DNA of 64,000 nt, taken from the NCBI RefSeq assembly GCF_018613835.1, contig NZ_JAGGPM010000013.1:1-64000 (forward strand), read 5' to 3'. A program made the position numbers and the translations under genes. Origin of the DNA: Arthrobacter sp. ISL-5. Lineage in GTDB: Bacteria; Actinomycetota; Actinomycetes; Actinomycetales; Micrococcaceae. The notes under the pieces are model-generated. The model was not told the origin of the DNA, searched no databases, and saw only the letters and a list, made by a program, of their open reading frames with translations. This document shows positions 8,046-14,939 of the stretch, one piece after another (position 1 is the first letter of the stretch; each line of letters begins with the position of its first letter).

Positions 8046-8726
8046 ATGACTCTGAGCACCTCGCACCGCCCGCCCCTGGCGGACGAAATCACCACCAAAC
8101 TCCGGGAGATGATCCATTCGGGCGAGTGGCCGCTGCAACAGCGCATCCCGTCCGAAACCGAGCTCATGGCCGGGCTGGGCGTATCCCGCGGAACCCTGCG
8201 GGAGGCCATCAAGGCCCTGGCCCACAGCGGCATGCTCGAAGTGCGCCGCGGGGACGGCACCTACGTCCGCGCCACGAGCGAGATCTCGGGCGCGGCCCGG
8301 CGGCTGTACCAGGACCACACCGATGAGCACATCCTCGAAGTGCGGGTGGGGCTGGACACCCAGGCCGCACGCCTCGCCGCCAGGCACGCAACCGCCGACG
8401 ACGTCGCCGCCATGCGCGCGCTGCTCGCCGAGCGCGAAGACGCGTGGCACGCAGCCGACTATGCGCGCTGGGCCCGCGCGGACTGGGGCTTCCATGAACG
8501 GGTGGCACAGGCCTCCGGCAACCCCCTCCTGCACGAGCTCTACGTCAGCTTCGGCGACGTTTTCCACAACGACCTGCTGAAGCAGCAGCGGCGCAGCGGC
8601 TTCAACGGGCTGCCGCACGAGGGCCATGGCGAGATGGTGGACGCCATCGAAGCGCACGACGGCGACGCTGCTGTGGCCAGCGTGCACCGGAACCTCAACT
8701 CCTGCGCGGAGTGGCTCCGGGAGTAG
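8046..8726 (+). CDS. FadR-type GntR transcriptional regulator
   Basis: 226 aa. An N-terminal winged helix-turn-helix (about 10-75; IPSETELMAGLGVSRGTLREAI and a GDGTYVR wing) is joined to an all-helical FCD ligand-binding domain (about 85-220) with histidines typical of the metal/ligand site (ADWGFHERV, NLNSCAEW). It starts 6 nt after the MFS stop with AGGA just upstream, so it is cotranscribed. It probably represses the MFS promoter and is released by a small organic acid; the ligand is unknown. Confidence 0.88.
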   Translation: MTLSTSHRPPLADEITTKLREMIHSGEWPLQQRIPSETELMAGLGVSRGTLREAIKALAHSGMLEVRRGDGTYVRATSEISGAARRLYQDHTDEHILEVRVGLDTQAARLAARHATADDVAAMRALLAEREDAWHAADYARWARADWGFHERVAQASGNPLLHELYVSFGDVFHNDLLKQQRRSGFNGLPHEGHGEMVDAIEAHDGDAAVASVHRNLNSCAEWLRE

Positions 8727-8931
8727 CGCCTGTGGAGGTGGACTGCGATCGTCATCGGGTTCGTCAACGCCGAGTTCTGAGGCAGGCGGCGTCCAGCGAC
8801 GCTCCTGTCCAGTGGCGCGCCTGCGGGGTTTCACCATCCTCAGACACATCAGTAGGCTTACTACCTGAACCGGGGAATTAACTCCGGGGAGCTCAATGCT
8901 CCCCGCCGCCCGCTGATGACGAGGAGTTCCG

Positions 8932-10125
8932 ATGGCCCGATCGGCAGAACTGTCCGAGCAAGAATCACCCGGCCAGGACCCGCCGGCCCAGCCCCCGCAG
9001 CCTCGGAAGAACAGGCAGTTGCGTGACCGGAAATCCCCCGGGGAACTCTGGGCCGACGGCCTCGGCAGGGTAGGCATCCGGAGCGCGCAGGTCCTGCTGA
9101 TGCTCGCCGTCGCCGCCGTGGCCACCTACGGCCTCCTGCAGGTCAAGCTCCTGGTCATTCCGGTCGTGATCGCGCTGATCCTGGCAGCCGCCATCGGCCC
9201 GTTCGTCAACATACTGCGGCGGCGGGGCATACCGGGCGGCATTGCCACGGGACTGGCCTTCGTGGGCCTGTTGCTCCTGCTGGCCGGGGTCACCACGGTG
9301 ATCTATTTATCCGTCCGCAGCCAGTGGGGCGAACTGGCGCAGCAGGCATCCTCCGGGCTGGACGAACTGGAAAACTTCCTGCTGACCGGCCCCGTTCCCC
9401 TCGACCGCGAGCAGCTGAACCAGGCACGGGAGGGCCTGGTCCAGTTCGCGGCCAGCAGCCAGGTGCGCTCCGGCGCCATCCTGGGACTGTCGATGGTCAC
9501 TGAATTCCTCGCCGGCGCCGCCCTCATGGTGGTGTTCCTGTTCTTTTTCCTGAAGGACGGCGCAAAGATCTGGAACTTCTTCCTGCGGCCCTACTCAGGC
9601 CACCGCGAGGCCAGGCTCCGGCGCGCCGGCCAGCGGACCTTGGAGGTCCTGGGCGGCTACGTCCGCGGAACCGCCATCGTGGCACTGGTGGATACGGTGG
9701 CAATCGGCGCCGCCCTGCTGATCCTGCAGGTGCCGCTGGCCATCCCCCTGGCCATCGTCGTTTTCATCACCGCCTTTGTGCCGCTCGTGGGAGCCACCGT
9801 GGCCGGGATCCTCGCCGCACTGGTGGCCCTGGTGGCCAACGGGCCGGTGGTGGCCTTGATCGTGGTGGCCGTGGTGATCGTGGTCAACCAGCTCGAAGGT
9901 GACCTGCTGCAGCCGATTGTGATGGGCAAATCGCTCCAGCTCCACGCCCTGGTCATCCTGATGGCACTGACGGCCGGCACCATCCTGGCGGGCATCGTCG
10001 GCGCCGTCCTTTCGGTGCCGCTGGCAGCCGTGACCTGGGCGATCATCCAGGTGTGGACCGCGGAAGATCCTGACCTCGAAGCCATGAACCCGGACCTGCC
10101 CCCTGCCAACAGCCAGCCGACGTAA
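8932..10125 (+). CDS. AI-2E family transporter
   Basis: 397 aa. A hydrophilic Pro/Gln-rich N-terminus (1-45) precedes about seven to eight membrane segments, with the family features LLVIPVVIALILAAAIGPFV, FFFLKDG and NQLEGDLLQPIVMGKSLQLH. Members include the TqsA autoinducer-2 exporter and Na+/H+ antiporter-like proteins; the substrate here is unknown. GAGGAG lies 5 nt before the ATG. The 205-nt gap upstream holds only a short GGGGAGC/GCTCCCC hairpin near 8896-8910. A monocistronic unit is likely. Confidence 0.85.
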   Translation: MARSAELSEQESPGQDPPAQPPQPRKNRQLRDRKSPGELWADGLGRVGIRSAQVLLMLAVAAVATYGLLQVKLLVIPVVIALILAAAIGPFVNILRRRGIPGGIATGLAFVGLLLLLAGVTTVIYLSVRSQWGELAQQASSGLDELENFLLTGPVPLDREQLNQAREGLVQFAASSQVRSGAILGLSMVTEFLAGAALMVVFLFFFLKDGAKIWNFFLRPYSGHREARLRRAGQRTLEVLGGYVRGTAIVALVDTVAIGAALLILQVPLAIPLAIVVFITAFVPLVGATVAGILAALVALVANGPVVALIVVAVVIVVNQLEGDLLQPIVMGKSLQLHALVILMALTAGTILAGIVGAVLSVPLAAVTWAIIQVWTAEDPDLEAMNPDLPPANSQPT

Positions 10126-10186
10126 CCAACGCACGACGGCGGGCCGCACCCGTCCTGTTGACTGAACTTCAGAGGAGACTGAACCG

Positions 10187-10447
10187 ATGCCGGAGAGCCC
10201 TGGCCGGCGTGCCCGGTTGGCGCACCGCATCCCGCTGGAGGAGAACGCCGGGATGCGCCGGGCGCCGTTGCGGCAGAAAGCGGCCGTGCTGGCGCGGTCG
10301 ATTCCGGATGGTCTCGTCGATGAGCTGATCGGGGTCTTGCGCACGAGCCGGGATCGGGCGCTCGTGAGCCTGTATTTGTCCTCGGGTGCCCGGGCGAGCG
10401 AGCTTCTCGGGGTCCGGGGTGACCAGGTGGACTGGGCCAGGCAACGC
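10187..10447 (+). pseudogene. Tyrosine recombinase (integrase) fragment
   Basis: About 87 residues match the middle of actinobacterial tyrosine recombinases: APLRQK, ARSIPDGLVDELI, RDRALVSLYLSSGARASELLGV. It keeps the first catalytic arginine (GARASELL) but ends at about DWARQR, before the second arginine box and the active tyrosine. The N-terminal core-binding domain is also missing. Beyond 10447 the frame enters unrelated sequence that reads as a hydantoinase fragment on the other strand. It is a dead relic of a mobile element. Confidence 0.7.
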
Positions 10448-10748
10448 TTCCCCGTACCCGTAGACCGGTTGACCCTTGCCGCGCGCCTCGCGGATGGCGT
10501 CCACGTCTTCGTGGACGCTGACGTGCATCTGGTAAGTGGGGCTCCTACATGGGCGCCAGCGTGATCGCCATCTGGAACGAGAGGTTTTCGGATAGGTTGT
10601 TGTGGGGATGGTGCATGTACTCGATGCCGATCTGGCCCTCGTGCTGCAGCTTCTTATAGGAGTACATGACGGTATCGTCGTCCTCCGCGTGGACGGCGAG
10701 CATTGCGCCGGCAGCAGCGGTCTGCTCTATAAGTCCCACTTGTTGCCA
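10448..10748 (-). pseudogene. Hydantoinase/dihydropyrimidinase fragment, frameshifted
   Basis: On the minus strand a first frame reads AAAGAMLAVHAEDDDTVMYSY and later YMHHPHNNLSENLS before a stop. A second frame then resumes as HVSVHEDVDAIREARGKGQP. These are the consecutive 'VHAE' and 'HVS...DAIREARAKG' blocks of D-hydantoinase/dihydropyrimidinase. Both ends are missing and a frameshift with a stop lies near 10545, so no active enzyme can be made. The break at 10447/10448 with the integrase relic is abrupt. Confidence 0.7.
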
Positions 10749-10840
10749 AGGCCGGTCTATTGCTTGGGTGGAGAACCTCACTCTGCAGGTCAAGTAGGAA
10801 AGGTACGACGGCCGGTTCAGTCCCCTGCCCGGCGCGCCTG

Positions 10841-11986
10841 TTACCCTCCCAGCGGTGCCATGATGAACCGCGGAGGGACCGCTGCACGGAACGGCGCCAG
10901 GGTGGCCGGATCCGCGGTGGCCCTCCAGTCGATGACCTGGTTGGTCGGCACCGTCTCTTCTTTGGTGTACTCGAACCACATGGCCAGTTTCATCAGGGGG
11001 AACCGCGTTGAGAGACCGGGGTCGAACATTTGCTTCCACCAGGCGGATTTGATGTCCAGCGCTGCCGCTCCGTCTGTGCGGGCCGTGTTGTAGAACGCTG
11101 CTGTTTCGGAAATGGCGAATGGCTTGGCGTGCCCTTCCGCGTAGGTGGCATAGAAGTCCGGGACGGCGGTTTCATCCACGAGGCCGATCTTGTATGTTCC
11201 GGTGATTTTCGCGGCCAGCTTGCCCGGGGCGGGAATCTCGTTTTCGCCCCAGGGGTAGACGTCGCCGAAGTGATAGAGCGTGAGTCCCACCCAGTCCACG
11301 GCGTCGTCGCCGGGCCAGTAGGGGCTGTAGGGGTCGTCGTCCATGGACAGCTTCCCGTCGCCGTTTGTGTCCAGGGCGGAGAATGCGGCTGTTCCGGGCT
11401 TCGCCTCCTGCGCCCCTCCAGGGAACGGGTAGCCGCCGCCTTCGTTCGGGGACCAGAGCATGGTGGATCCGGGGACCGCATGGACGGCTGCGGCCACCTG
11501 GCGGAACTTTTCGATGAAGAGCGCCGGCTGCTGGCCCCATGGATACCACGATCCGTTCATTTCATGGGCGAAGCGCACCATGACGGGAACACCCTTGCGG
11601 GTCCAGGTCGTCAGCTCCCGCGAGAACGCCGCCAGCACCTCTGGCGTGACGGAGGCGAGGCCGTTCCGGGGTTCGAGCGTCAGCATCATGGCGGAATGGG
11701 CCGCAGCCAGCTCCGCTACCTCCTCGCCCACTGCCTTTTCCTCCTCCGGCGTCAGGGGGAAGCTGACGTAGCGTCCGTACATTGCAGGGCTCGCTCCGAG
11801 TCGGGATGCATAGTCCTCCACGGAATCCTGCTGCCAGTCCAGCTGGACGCCGTAATAGGCCTTCCCGTCGTCGGGAACGGGGAATGGGACGCGCCGTTCG
11901 GTGAACGCAAAGGCCAGGGAAGCGGCTGCGACCGCAAGCGCCACCATGCAGACAACCACCTTCCGGGCTGTGCCTTCCCGGTTCAT
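10841..11986 (-). CDS. GH26 family glycoside hydrolase (mannanase-like), membrane-anchored
   Basis: 381 aa. One N-terminal hydrophobic segment (about 9-28) acts as signal or anchor, and a GH26 (beta/alpha)8 domain follows. The acid/base region RFAHEMNGSWYPWG is diagnostic, and the likely nucleophile is the glutamate in AISETAAFY. GH26 enzymes mostly cut beta-1,4-mannan, some beta-glucans. A DTNGDGKLSMDD segment (about 203-214) resembles a calcium-binding EF-hand/dockerin loop. The ATG overlaps the upstream stop as ATGA, so it is translationally coupled to the membrane protein and the GT2 synthase. The setting suggests trimming or release of a polymer made by that synthase. Confidence 0.82.
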   Translation of the reverse strand: MNREGTARKVVVCMVALAVAAASLAFAFTERRVPFPVPDDGKAYYGVQLDWQQDSVEDYASRLGASPAMYGRYVSFPLTPEEEKAVGEEVAELAAAHSAMMLTLEPRNGLASVTPEVLAAFSRELTTWTRKGVPVMVRFAHEMNGSWYPWGQQPALFIEKFRQVAAAVHAVPGSTMLWSPNEGGGYPFPGGAQEAKPGTAAFSALDTNGDGKLSMDDDPYSPYWPGDDAVDWVGLTLYHFGDVYPWGENEIPAPGKLAAKITGTYKIGLVDETAVPDFYATYAEGHAKPFAISETAAFYNTARTDGAAALDIKSAWWKQMFDPGLSTRFPLMKLAMWFEYTKEETVPTNQVIDWRATADPATLAPFRAAVPPRFIMAPLGG

Positions 11987-12315
11987 GCGGGGATCACCCT
12001 CACGCTTTTCTCGGTCTTCAGGATGACGTACACCACCATCAACGCCAGTTCTGCGGTGATCGCCGCCGCGAAAACAATGTCCGGCAGGAGCTGATCAAGG
12101 ACCCCATGGAGGGCTGCCGCCAAGGGTACACCGATGAAGACAGAGGCCATGAGCGCTCCGGTGAACAACAGGGCCAGGCACGCCACCCGAGTTTTCAGGC
12201 TGGCCTTGCCAGCCGCCGTCGGCATGGGCAGTTCCTCGTTTGCGACGGCGGCCGCGGTTGCGGCTGTTTCTGCCGTCAAGCCGTCTCCGACGGCGAATCC
12301 TATGCTTGGTTCCAT
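11983..12315 (-). CDS. Small membrane protein of the GT2/GH26 operon
   Basis: 110 aa with no family that I recognise. The first 45 residues are hydrophilic and Ala/Thr-rich; two hydrophobic segments follow (about 48-68 and 74-98) and a short basic tail. The ATG at 12315 comes 1 nt after the glycosyltransferase stop; a GTG at 12324 overlapping that stop is an alternative. It ends in an ATGA overlap with the GH26 gene. Its constant position suggests an accessory or export subunit of the synthase; that is inference. Confidence 0.65.
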   Translation of the reverse strand: MEPSIGFAVGDGLTAETAATAAAVANEELPMPTAAGKASLKTRVACLALLFTGALMASVFIGVPLAAALHGVLDQLLPDIVFAAAITAELALMVVYVILKTEKSVRVIPA

Positions 12316-12316
12316 G

Positions 12317-13753
12317 TCACTCACCGTTCCTGATGCTCGCGAGGTCTGCTTGCTTGGTCTTGGGGGTGGGTATCCACGCCACCCCACGTTTTCCGGACAC
12401 CCAGCCCACAACAGCCCAAAGGGCTGCGGAGCTTTCACAGATCCCCGCGATCGGGGCAACGGCCACTGCGCGTGCGATCTCCGCCGCACGGGTCCATCTG
12501 TCCAGCCCGGCGTCGGCCACGTTGTGCCAGGCACCAACGAACACCGAGCCGAGCCACATTGCGCCGATAACGGCCAGCCAGAGACTGGCTGCCTCGGGGA
12601 TCAGCGGAACGTCGTCCAGGATCAAGGCTGCGATGGCACGGGCCACGAAGAGGGGAACCACCAGCAGTGAGAGTGTCCCGACGATGGCGCCGAGCGCGAA
12701 GGTAGTGATGCGGAAGCGGGTGCCCCACAGCAGTCCTGTCCTGGTCCGCAGCGGTAGAGTGCGGAAGAGCGAGCTCCGGGCCGCGGCGGTGATCCCCTGG
12801 AGGACGCCGAAGATCCAGCGGTACCGCTGCTTGAAGGCGCTGTGCACCGAGAAGGGGGGCTGTTCCAGCATGAGGCAGCCGTGCCAGTCGAAAATGTCGC
12901 GGCCGTACTTGGTAAACGCGTTCATTCCGAACACGTAGTCCTCGGCTATGAACGGCTGACCGTCCAGGGAGCCGATGTCCCAGCCCAGCTCGTTCTCGAG
13001 GGCTTCATCCACCACCAGGTTGGAGCCGTGCAGGTGGAGCGGGACCCCTGATTCCATCACGTGGCGGCACTCGTAGCAGCCGATGGGGCGGTTGGCCTCC
13101 ATCGACCGGCAGAGGACGGATGCGCGCAGGTATTCGAGTGGGTAGAAGATGGGGCCTTCGAGGACCTGCTTGCTGGTGCCGGAGAGGATCTTCATCAGCT
13201 TGCGGAGCTCCTCGGGGACCATGACGCTCTCCTCGTCGTAATGGACGATGAAGGTGCGGCCCGATTTTCTGTTCCACAGTCCCCGCCGGTTTTCCACCGC
13301 GTAGTGCAGGCCCCTGGCCTTGAGGCCGGTCCCGGCGGGGGTTTCGTAGTTGGCAGGGATCACCAGGGCGTCGACGGCGATGGGTGCGTCGTGGAAGACC
13401 CTCCGCACTGTCTCTGCCTGATCGGCGGATTCGGTCACTACTTCCACTGACAGGAACCGGCGGTAGAACGCGGGGTCCTCACGGCCAAGCTCGACAACGT
13501 TGCGGATCCCCCGCAGGATGACACCGGTGCTGCCGTCTGAGCCGCGGGTGGTGATCTGGATCTTGACGAACGGCACGTCCAGCCCGCGCAGTTCGGTGGT
13601 GGTCACAGCCTCCCGCCGCCGGTAGCGTCTCCAGAAGAAGACGAAGCTCAACCAGTATCCGGCCATGCGGACGCCGATAACGGAGACGGCCACGAACAGG
13701 AACGGACCCAGCGTCATCAGCGCGGAATCAATCAAATCCGGCATGGTGATCAC
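12317..13753 (-). CDS. Family 2 glycosyltransferase, egghead-like polysaccharide synthase
   Basis: About 478 aa. A membrane segment near residues 10-35 precedes a GT-A domain with HYDEES (DxD-like), FIAEDYVFG and the QRYRW motif, and several C-terminal membrane segments follow (about 345-450). The processive-type motifs and the order resemble egghead-like beta-1,4-mannosyltransferases, which fits the GH26 hydrolase in the same operon. Product and linkage are inference. I favour the GTG at 13753 because it overlaps the stop of a preceding 26-codon ORF as GTGA; the ATG at 13744 is an alternative. No Shine-Dalgarno is present, consistent with coupling. Confidence 0.8.
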   Translation of the reverse strand: MITMPDLIDSALMTLGPFLFVAVSVIGVRMAGYWLSFVFFWRRYRRREAVTTTELRGLDVPFVKIQITTRGSDGSTGVILRGIRNVVELGREDPAFYRRFLSVEVVTESADQAETVRRVFHDAPIAVDALVIPANYETPAGTGLKARGLHYAVENRRGLWNRKSGRTFIVHYDEESVMVPEELRKLMKILSGTSKQVLEGPIFYPLEYLRASVLCRSMEANRPIGCYECRHVMESGVPLHLHGSNLVVDEALENELGWDIGSLDGQPFIAEDYVFGMNAFTKYGRDIFDWHGCLMLEQPPFSVHSAFKQRYRWIFGVLQGITAAARSSLFRTLPLRTRTGLLWGTRFRITTFALGAIVGTLSLLVVPLFVARAIAALILDDVPLIPEAASLWLAVIGAMWLGSVFVGAWHNVADAGLDRWTRAAEIARAVAVAPIAGICESSAALWAVVGWVSGKRGVAWIPTPKTKQADLASIRNGE

Positions 13754-13830
13754 GGCCAAGTGGCGGGGTTGGCGTGCATCCGGCCAGCCAGCTCAGGCAG
13801 GGCGCACAGGAATATCGCTTCTTCACGCAT
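13750..13830 (-). CDS. Candidate 26-aa upstream ORF, coupled to the glycosyltransferase
   Basis: ATG at 13830 is preceded by AAAAGG at good spacing (7 nt). The frame reads MREEAIFLCALPELAGRMH and ends with a TGA that overlaps the glycosyltransferase GTG as GTGA. A promoter candidate lies upstream: TTGCGG (13872-13867), 17 nt, TATCGC (13849-13844). It could be a leader peptide that controls synthase translation or a small membrane-associated protein. No homolog is known to me. Confidence 0.45.
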   Translation of the reverse strand: MREEAIFLCALPELAGRMHANPATWP

Positions 13831-13956
13831 TTTGAGACCTTTTGCGATAGGCGGTGTTCAGTTGAACCGCAAGTCCACAGCATGGGAAAGCGCGCGTCAC
13901 GAGTACCCGATACCCGCTAATAGTCCGGTGCCGTCTTCGGTCTCTCGTGCTTGTAC

Positions 13957-14292
13957 TCAGAACGGGATGGCCACCACTTGGTCCCTGGCTCCTGGATCTG
14001 CTGTTCCTTGACCCGAGGCGCGCGGCACAGCGAGCCCCTTCCGAGGGCGAAAATTAACGTGCCCGGTGGATGCATCCTGCGTAACGTCCACCCTCAGTGA
14101 AAGGGGTTCACCGGGTCGCATGGACAGCCCGCAGGCCGCACAGATCTTGGCGGTGTAGGCCGCCGTGAACACCTCTGGTCCCCCGGGTTCGTACTCGGGG
14201 TGAACCCGGCGCCAGCACACCGCCGTCCCCTGCTCACGGCGGAACCCGGACCCGGAACGGCCGAACGAACCTGGGCGCGCCACCCTACCCAC
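13957..14292 (-). CDS. Uncertain small ORF with a CxxC motif
   Basis: An open frame of up to 111 codons; the plausible part is TAKICAACGLSMRPGEP, which has one CxxC pair, and the N-terminal half is Arg/Gly-rich and may be untranslated. It ends before the promoter region of the polysaccharide operon. I do not recognise a family. The stretch from 13831 to 14332 otherwise shows nothing beyond the promoter of the 26-codon ORF. Confidence 0.25.
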   Translation of the reverse strand: MGRVARPGSFGRSGSGFRREQGTAVCWRRVHPEYEPGGPEVFTAAYTAKICAACGLSMRPGEPLSLRVDVTQDASTGHVNFRPRKGLAVPRASGQGTADPGARDQVVAIPF

Positions 14293-14332
14293 TTGAAAAG
14301 TGCAGAGAAGGCCGGTCAGTGTTGCCTCGCGA

Positions 14333-14368
14333 ACGGCGGCCGGGCACCTGAGGTGCCCAGCCGCCGTC
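14333..14368 (-). terminator. Hairpin downstream of the 14406 gene
   Basis: ACGGCGGC, GGGCACC, loop TGA, GGTGCCC, GCCGCCGT form a near-perfect stem 37 nt after the stop of the membrane protein gene. A weak CTTTAAAG follows. It could act in either direction. Confidence 0.6.
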
Positions 14369-14405
14369 GCCCTTTAAAGGGTCGACCTTCTAAACGGAAC
14401 TGCCC

Positions 14406-14939
14406 TTAGCGGAGGCCTTTGAACACGTTCTTGGGCCGCTGCATCTCACCGTGCTTGGCGCCGAGGACGATGACCCAGGCGGCGAACACCGGAATGGCCC
14501 ACTGCAGCGCCTTGAGCTGCTTCTGGGCCGACTGCAGCTTGTCGGACGCGCCGGCGCCGGGCTCGGTGGCCCCTTCGGCACCCTGGCCCGCCAGCTTCTC
14601 AACCTTCTTGCCGAGGACGCCCGCATACAGCGTCACCGCTGCACCCGCCACGGTGACTGCCGTCTTGTAGATGGTGTCGGCTCCCACGCTGTCCTGCTTG
14701 GCGATGCGTTCCCTGTTCTCCCAGGCGATCGCCAGGTCCGCGGCGAGGTGCGCGGCGAAGGCTGCGGTCTGAATCGGAGCCCATTTCATCCAGCCGCGGC
14801 TCGAGAGCCGTGTGCGTTCGGCGGGCTCCCGGGCTTCCGCCGCTGCCCCGTTGAGGCCGATGGCGCCCATGAGCGAACCGCCGAACCACGCCGCCGCCGT
14901 CAGGTCGTGAACGGACCGGGCCAAAAGATTTCCTGTCAT
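14406..14939 (-). CDS. Hypothetical membrane protein
   Basis: 177 aa. It opens MTGNLLARSVHDLTAAAWFG with hydrophobic segments at about 12-32, 57-75, 90-108 and 145-162 and an Ala/Gly/Glu-rich loop between the last two. I do not recognise a named family. AGGAAG lies 6 nt before the ATG; upstream in-frame codons lack support. It is divergent from the small cytosolic protein at 15113, with a promoter region between. It ends at a strong hairpin, so it is probably monocistronic. Confidence 0.65.
   Translation of the reverse strand: MTGNLLARSVHDLTAAAWFGGSLMGAIGLNGAAAEAREPAERTRLSSRGWMKWAPIQTAAFAAHLAADLAIAWENRERIAKQDSVGADTIYKTAVTVAGAAVTLYAGVLGKKVEKLAGQGAEGATEPGAGASDKLQSAQKQLKALQWAIPVFAAWVIVLGAKHGEMQRPKNVFKGLR

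Follow-up and report, generated by a model that had tools for sequence, protein, structure and literature searches.

A putative polysaccharide synthase–hydrolase operon of GT2, two-helix and GH26 proteins in Arthrobacter sp. ISL-5 and related actinobacteria

Known synthase and hydrolase systems

Synthase–hydrolase operons are already well known for cellulose and PNAG. In the bcs cellulose operon, the BcsA synthase is paired with the extracytoplasmic glucanase BcsZ. Synthases of the BcsA/HAS class form their membrane channel by themselves, from at least six helices.

In clostridia, the ccsZABHI operon encodes the synthase CcsA, which is homologous to Gram-negative exopolysaccharide synthases, together with the GH5 hydrolase CcsZ; there this hydrolase served to support the identity of the polymer (PMC7710045). 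The activity of the PNAG synthase PgaC needs a small integral membrane partner, PgaD (PMC8461298). The wps-1 cluster of Actinoplanes missouriensis is of the Wzx/Wzy type and holds a GT2, the GH26 WpsE and sulfotransferases, and its authors write that they know of no earlier characterised Wzx/Wzy cluster with a GH26 (PMC13390465, 2026). For the mixed-linkage glucan synthase of Romboutsia, the extract of the source names no hydrolase partner (PMC10374906).

The locus described here lies in a 64,000-nt stretch of Arthrobacter sp. ISL-5 (assembly GCF_018613835.1, contig NZ_JAGGPM010000013.1, positions 1 to 64,000 of the forward strand), hereafter the window. It encodes a GT2 glycosyltransferase, a small two-helix protein and a GH26 hydrolase. 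As in ccsZABHI, a GT2 synthase and a putative cognate endo-hydrolase share one Gram-positive operon; unlike ccsZABHI, the hydrolase is a GH26 and not a GH5, the GT2 has no Pfam match to PF03552, and the operon has no additional genes (PMC7710045). CcsZ/CcsA is the nearest precedent for inferring a polymer from its hydrolase. As with PgaC–PgaD/PgaB, a GT2, a small membrane protein and a glycosidase are found in one operon (PMC8461298, PMC5933820). Unlike the pga/ica systems, the locus has no deacetylase and no outer-membrane part, and its small protein matches no Pfam family above cut-off; a PgaB-type deacetylase–hydrolase is absent, the third gene being a GH26 whose only other Pfam match is to EF-hand loops. 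The pairing of a synthase with an extracytoplasmic hydrolase resembles bcs, but there is no PilZ and no BcsB-like gene, and GH26 stands in place of GH8. The marks of cellulose operons (PF03552 synthase, PilZ, GH8/GH5) are absent from all three proteins at Pfam E-values up to 1. Like wps-1, the locus joins an actinobacterial GH26 to a GT2, but wps-1 is of the Wzx/Wzy type and the window operon of the synthase type (PMC13390465). The pep EPS cluster of Paenibacillus polymyxa likewise contains a GH26 (PepM), but it is large and has several glycosyltransferases (PMC7911366). Among open-licence PMC papers, no report of a GT2–small protein–GH26 operon was found.

Layout of the three-gene unit

The unit occupies 10841–13744 on the minus strand, with all three genes co-oriented. 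The GT2 membrane glycosyltransferase (P0001, 475 aa, 13744–12317, PF13632) starts with ATG. It is followed by the small two-helix protein (P0002, 110 aa, 12315–11983), recognised by hydropathy and by its position 3' of the GT2, and then by the GH26 hydrolase (P0003, 381 aa, 11986–10841, PF02156). The initial annotation had placed the whole operon at 12317–13830. All three genes do exist, but these coordinates cover the GT2 alone, and its reading frame opens at TTG 13759 and not at 13830.

The gap between the GT2 and the small protein is 1 nt, and the stop of the small protein overlaps the start of GH26 by 4 nt in an ATGA (11983–11986, minus strand). A putative ribosome-binding stretch, AGGAACGG (12324–12331, minus strand), lies within the end of the GT2 gene, 8 nt upstream of the ATG of the small protein. 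The narrow gap, the overlap and this stretch make coupling of translation across the three genes plausible.

A promoter scan of 10100–14500 is uninformative (0 found, 0.4 expected). In the same interval there are six terminator-like sites against 2.6 expected, none of them directly behind GH26. Separately, a fragment similar to phage integrases (PF00589, E 0.0017, below cut-off) lies 3' of GH26 at 10187–10564 and might be a trace of mobility.

Purifying selection acts on all three genes. In comparisons with Arthrobacter loci L079, L080 and L081, pN/pS is 0.17–0.21 for the GT2, 0.26–0.35 for GH26 and 0.48–0.62 for the small protein.

The GT2 glycosyltransferase

The GT2 matches PF13632 with an E-value of 1.8e-16. 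All motifs of processive GT2s (D..D, ED and QxxRW) are present in an alignment of 14 sequences, in which D170-E171-E172, E268-D269 and Q306-R307-x-R309-W310 are invariant. QxxRW, on which the processive reading draws, is also carried by non-processive glycolipid GT2s. An AF2 model (pLDDT 81.1, pTM 0.81) predicts a GT-A core that is preceded by one membrane helix and followed by about three more. The top Foldseek matches of this model are hyaluronan synthase, cellulose synthase and PcManGT, and a second structure aligner gives PcManGT (Z 20.0, 327 aligned, 16% identity), BcsA (16.8) and hyaluronan synthase (16.7). Identity to BcsA chains is 12–15% across the fold match, a polyalanine model excepted. 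As modelled, the GT2 has a cellulose-synthase-like fold, but the nearest solved protein is the crenarchaeal N-glycan mannosyltransferase PcManGT (PDB 6yv7). To our knowledge, PcManGT has no link to a hydrolase.

A channel of six or more helices is not found within the GT2, which has about four; two more are present only in the partner protein. Hyaluronan synthases have six membrane helices, the number that the four of the GT2 and the two of its partner would give together.

A PDB sequence search with the single GT2 sequence returned no match; CD81, retrieved with a GT2 profile (E 2.1), was dismissed as a chance match. No GT2 match was found in the plasmid collection. A GT2 tree, whose branches were mostly open or weak, was set aside.

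The initial annotation took the GT2 for a processive, egghead-like enzyme and named clustering with lipid or protein glycosyltransferases as evidence to the contrary. The PcManGT score, which exceeds that of BcsA, touches this point in part. As regards egghead, the sequence shows general membership of PF13632. The GT2 might not be a polymerase at all: it might transfer a single hexose (mannose), or a small number of them, onto a lipid carrier or a glycolipid, with GH26 trimming or recycling the glycan. Besides the fold ranking, the small number of membrane helices agrees with such a role, and Drosophila egghead is a glycolipid mannosyltransferase. Characterised GH26 enzymes, on the other hand, act on polysaccharide chains, and related GH26s pair with cellulose-synthase-like GT2s. 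A small membrane partner also accompanies PgaC, which is a polymerase (PMC8461298). On balance, we regard a non-polymerising GT2 as rather unlikely, though deserving of weight.

The small two-helix protein

The 110-aa protein has hydrophobic segments at residues 42–74 and 76–101, in agreement with its earlier description as a two-helix protein, and a [FY][IV]xxPL motif closes helix 1. It matches no Pfam or NCBIfam family above cut-off. Nor does any Pfam family above cut-off link it to PgaD/IcaD, although such a search readily overlooks short proteins of two helices.

In 16/16 loci, the GT2 is followed by an ORF that has two hydrophobic stretches and carries the [FY][IV]xxPL motif. With P0002 as the query, tblastn reaches E 0.001–0.002 in L084, L085 and L087 and gives no match at the expected place in L082 and L086, where the small ORF was assigned by its place, its pair of hydrophobic stretches and its PL motif. 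Kinship of the small proteins outside Arthrobacter and Sinomonas is therefore only weakly suggested at the sequence level. The small ORF of Arthrobacter sp. B6 (L079) has a stop near its beginning, but an internal ATG preserves both helices.

The GH26 hydrolase

GH26 matches PF02156 with an E-value of 5.9e-7 (29.6 bits, cut-off 20.2). An EF-hand-like loop lies near residues 201–217 (EF-hand_5, E 7.7e-4, below cut-off). Glu142 and Glu294, assigned as the catalytic residues (acid/base and nucleophile) through a GH26 alignment and background knowledge of the family, are invariant in nine operon GH26 sequences. Both are present in 33/33 complete members of the operon and unlinked GH26 group, counting rows above 300 bits, duplicates once, the window included and four fragment rows excluded (two each from L011 and L152).

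The AF2 model (pLDDT 79.5, pTM 0.82) predicts a TIM barrel that agrees with solved GH26 structures, best with 2ddx (Z 23.1, rmsd 3.1, 278 aligned). Fold scores are 23.1 for this beta-1,3-xylanase, 22.7 for AlXyn26A (titled MLXase), 22.0 for lichenase and 21.6 for mannanase; xylanase, lichenase and the best mannanase span no more than 1.5 Z. A profile of operon GH26s searched against the PDB retrieves the lichenase CtLic26 (3.1e-11) and a beta-1,3-xylanase (5.7e-7) ahead of mannanases (1.8e-6 and weaker). This ranking suggests a glucan-type substrate ahead of mannan, in an alignment that covers only part of the domain. The initial annotation had named beta-mannan as one of two possible products; it stays an option here but not the preferred one, since the profile ranking does not support it and the fold scores lie close together.

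By hydropathy, a single N-terminal hydrophobic segment spans residues 6–30. The enzyme is likely to be membrane-anchored, as had been proposed, although the segment might serve either as an anchor or as a signal that is cleaved off. The operon GH26 of Blastococcus carries VVAGC, which we take to be lipobox-like.

Distribution of the operon

The GT2 is rare. With the window GT2 as query (E <= 0.001), 4/59 near genomes match, the close matches being the window's own genome and G003. Across the phylum, 4/396 genomes match at the same threshold, with the window's own as the sole close match. A four-sequence GT2 profile finds matches in 13/295 family genomes, five of them close (at least 804 bits). 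A scan of genome contigs seeded with two short peptide patterns gave 14 loci, which together with the window and Sinomonas-like G623 (L044) make 16 distinct loci. Several handles denote the same locus and were counted once (L045/L091, L046/L085, L083/L093, L047/L092, L054/L161, L056/L128, L057/L127 and L060/L160). The GT2s of L094–L096 (353–357 bits) were considered as operon members and excluded from the counts; they seem to form a separate lineage, and no glycosidase was noticed alongside them.

An intact GH26 stands behind the GT2–small protein pair in 10/16 loci. In Arthrobacter these are the window, Arthrobacter sp. B6 (L079), ISL-28 (L080), ISL-72 (L081) and Leaf337 (L088); the others are Sinomonas L085 and L091, Sinomonas-like L044, Cellulomonas marina (L084) and Blastococcus mobilis (L086). 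The three-gene order, for which a search in other actinobacteria had been proposed, thus recurs in Arthrobacter, Sinomonas, Cellulomonas and Blastococcus. Its recurrence in other genera and the pN/pS values place the operon beyond chance. Neighbouring genes outside it vary between the genera inspected, which marks the operon itself as the conserved unit.

The remaining loci differ in their glycosidase. In Modestobacter (L082), GH26 is truncated to a stretch matching residues 45–114, and the 1227-aa ORF behind this remnant is presumably a mobilisation gene. In a Quadrisphaera MAG (L089), GH26 lies directly upstream of the GT2. MAG L087, from Acidimicrobiaceae, encodes a GH42-like protein (PF02449, 1.6e-4, barely above cut-off) whose gene overlaps the GT2 start by 4 nt; upstream of the GH42-like gene and overlapping it, a 1090-aa protein without a Pfam match is encoded at L087:1719-4991. 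No linked glycosidase was found in 3/16 loci, namely those of Sinomonas gamaensis (L083), Arthrobacter ISL-30 (L090) and Pseudarthrobacter enclensis (L092); the GT2 frame of L092 is broken.

The small two-helix ORF is therefore more constant (16/16) than an intact downstream GH26 (10/16). This might mean that the GT2 and the small protein are the working unit and GH26 an optional addition, serving for example dispersal or attack on the polymer of neighbours. Yet the genomes of L083, L090 and L092 each hold an unlinked GH26 of another type, against a family rate of 66/295 genomes with PF02156, three genomes being few for such a comparison. We judge an optional GH26 to be the least probable of the explanations weighed here. 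Among 12 further GT2-bearing genomes, 11 have a PF02156 match somewhere, mostly the operon's own or a linked copy, which leaves the three genomes lacking a linked glycosidase as the informative cases. A single contig of Cellulomonas marina (L084; G748, contig C14) has six PF02156 matches. One belongs to a divergent gene that immediately precedes the GT2 operon; the operon GH26 itself is not among the six because it falls below the threshold of the PF02156 profile.

Shared history of the GT2 and GH26

Distances of the GT2 and of GH26 correlate closely (Mantel r 0.94, 10 taxa), in a comparison where shared species history is not controlled. In a 38-row GH26 tree, 9/10 operon GH26s form one clade (99/95), and 20 unlinked GH26s form a separate clade (100/99). 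The GH26 of Cellulomonas L084 falls outside the operon clade and groups with the unfused GH26 of L159. The tree group labelled 'opgc' is partly mislabelled: its L159 row is the unfused, higher-scoring GH26, and L058 and L059 are without OpgC.

The unlinked relatives, about 45–53% identical, are found on chromosomes and on plasmids of Arthrobacter and Paenarthrobacter. L009–L013 are stand-alone GH26 relatives on large plasmids of these genera, most typed conjugative; on plasmid AP018698 the GH26 copy is split into two ORFs. In L049, an unlinked GH26 lies beside ABC-transporter, isomerase-like and oxidoreductase genes, a sugar-uptake/catabolism set.

GH26 might accordingly be a scavenger of plant or fungal glycans that became a chance neighbour of the GT2 in a mobile segment. 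The conjugative plasmids, the L049 gene set and the weak integrase-like fragment in the window all fit this view. It is opposed by the constant position of GH26 after one and the same gene pair in four genera of three families, by the single clade of 9/10 operon copies, and by further kinds of GH26 that also adjoin GT2 genes. A scavenging role by chance proximity is, in our estimate, very unlikely.

GH26 beside other GT2s and OpgC fusions

A GT2 is present in the fetched stretch at 11/40 sampled GH26 loci, against 0/7 control stretches at hand-picked places, and none was found at 29/40; the 11 include L055, from which a seed was taken, and L044, which is the operon itself. The sample comprises every third of 120 PF02156 rows, the stretches measure 6.8 to 16.5 kb, and GT2 genes were detected with five seeds (E 1e-6), some of them drawn from GH26 neighbourhoods. 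The window genome has ten PF13632 matches in 5.35 Mb, or about 0.02 expected per 12 kb. The unlinked GH26s nearest the operon clade have no GT2 nearby, with the exceptions of L160 and L159.

GH26 genes adjoin GT2s in several arrangements. L159 has a cellulose-synthase-like GT2 (PF03552, 4.2e-24) with a GH26–OpgC fusion on one side and an unfused operon-type GH26 on the other, the latter 98 nt behind it. In L055, a GH26–OpgC fusion overlaps a cellulose-synthase-like GT2 by 4 nt. In L160, a third kind of GT2 is flanked by two GH26 genes. The window genome itself has a second GH26, with an extra N-terminal region, and a convergent GT2 172 nt away from it (L114:6639-7874 and 8047-9291, C11); similar pairs occur in L119, L137 and L160.

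GH26–OpgC fusions are present in L055 (2928–5510), L056, L057, L134, L136, L158, L159 (429–2924) and L054. OpgC was identified by Pfam in L055, L057, L136 and L159, and by length and a crude sequence mark in the other four. Substitutions affect one catalytic glutamate or both in 7/8 distinct fusion proteins, L056 alone keeping the two intact; relatives on the same branch without OpgC (L058, L059) likewise have replaced glutamate(s). Fusions lacking these residues are possibly dead hydrolases that would hold the chain for acylation.

Proposed function and significance

We consider a synthase-dependent surface-polysaccharide operon with its own hydrolase the probable reading of this locus. At the inner membrane face, the GT2 would build a beta-linked chain from an NDP-sugar, either UDP-glucose or GDP-mannose. 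The two-helix protein might bind the four-helix GT2 and complete or stabilise the export path, in the way that PgaD serves PgaC. Outside the membrane, GH26 would cut the emerging chain and thereby set its length, clear misplaced chains or release the chain. BcsZ and CcsZ are thought to act similarly on chains during cellulose synthesis. Most likely, the product is a chain with beta-1,4 or mixed beta-1,3/1,4 linkages, with glucan first and then glucomannan or mannan.

The conserved gene order, the invariant catalytic motifs, purifying selection and the occurrence of GH26s beside other kinds of GT2 support this synthase–hydrolase reading well. The parallel with operons of a synthase and a cognate hydrolase, drawn in the initial annotation, is borne out as a conserved module, intact in 10/16 loci and with invariant catalytic residues. 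The upstream GH26 of L089 and the upstream GH42-like protein of L087, present where the downstream GH26 is missing, also count in favour. Counting against it are the three loci without a linked glycosidase, the 29 sampled GH26 loci without a GT2, the unlinked GH26 relatives, PcManGT as the best fold match and the roughly four helices of the GT2.

In the present case, an uncharacterised GT2 lineage forms, with an unnamed two-helix partner and GH26, a recurring actinobacterial module. GH26 provides a ready probe, since identifying what it cuts would reveal the polymer, much as CcsZ helped with cellulose in clostridia. Should the small protein complete the channel, the pair would offer a compact two-subunit synthase for mechanistic work. 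More broadly, and as a tentative proposal, Micrococcaceae and related actinobacteria may use three or more distinct GT2 synthases to make a family of surface polysaccharides that are sensitive to GH26. The first would be a minimal two-subunit machine in which a four-helix GT2 and its two-helix partner are coupled to a catalytically active GH26 as editor. A second would be a cellulose-synthase-like GT2 coupled to an OpgC acyltransferase with a catalytically dead GH26 domain, and this domain would hold the chain for acylation.
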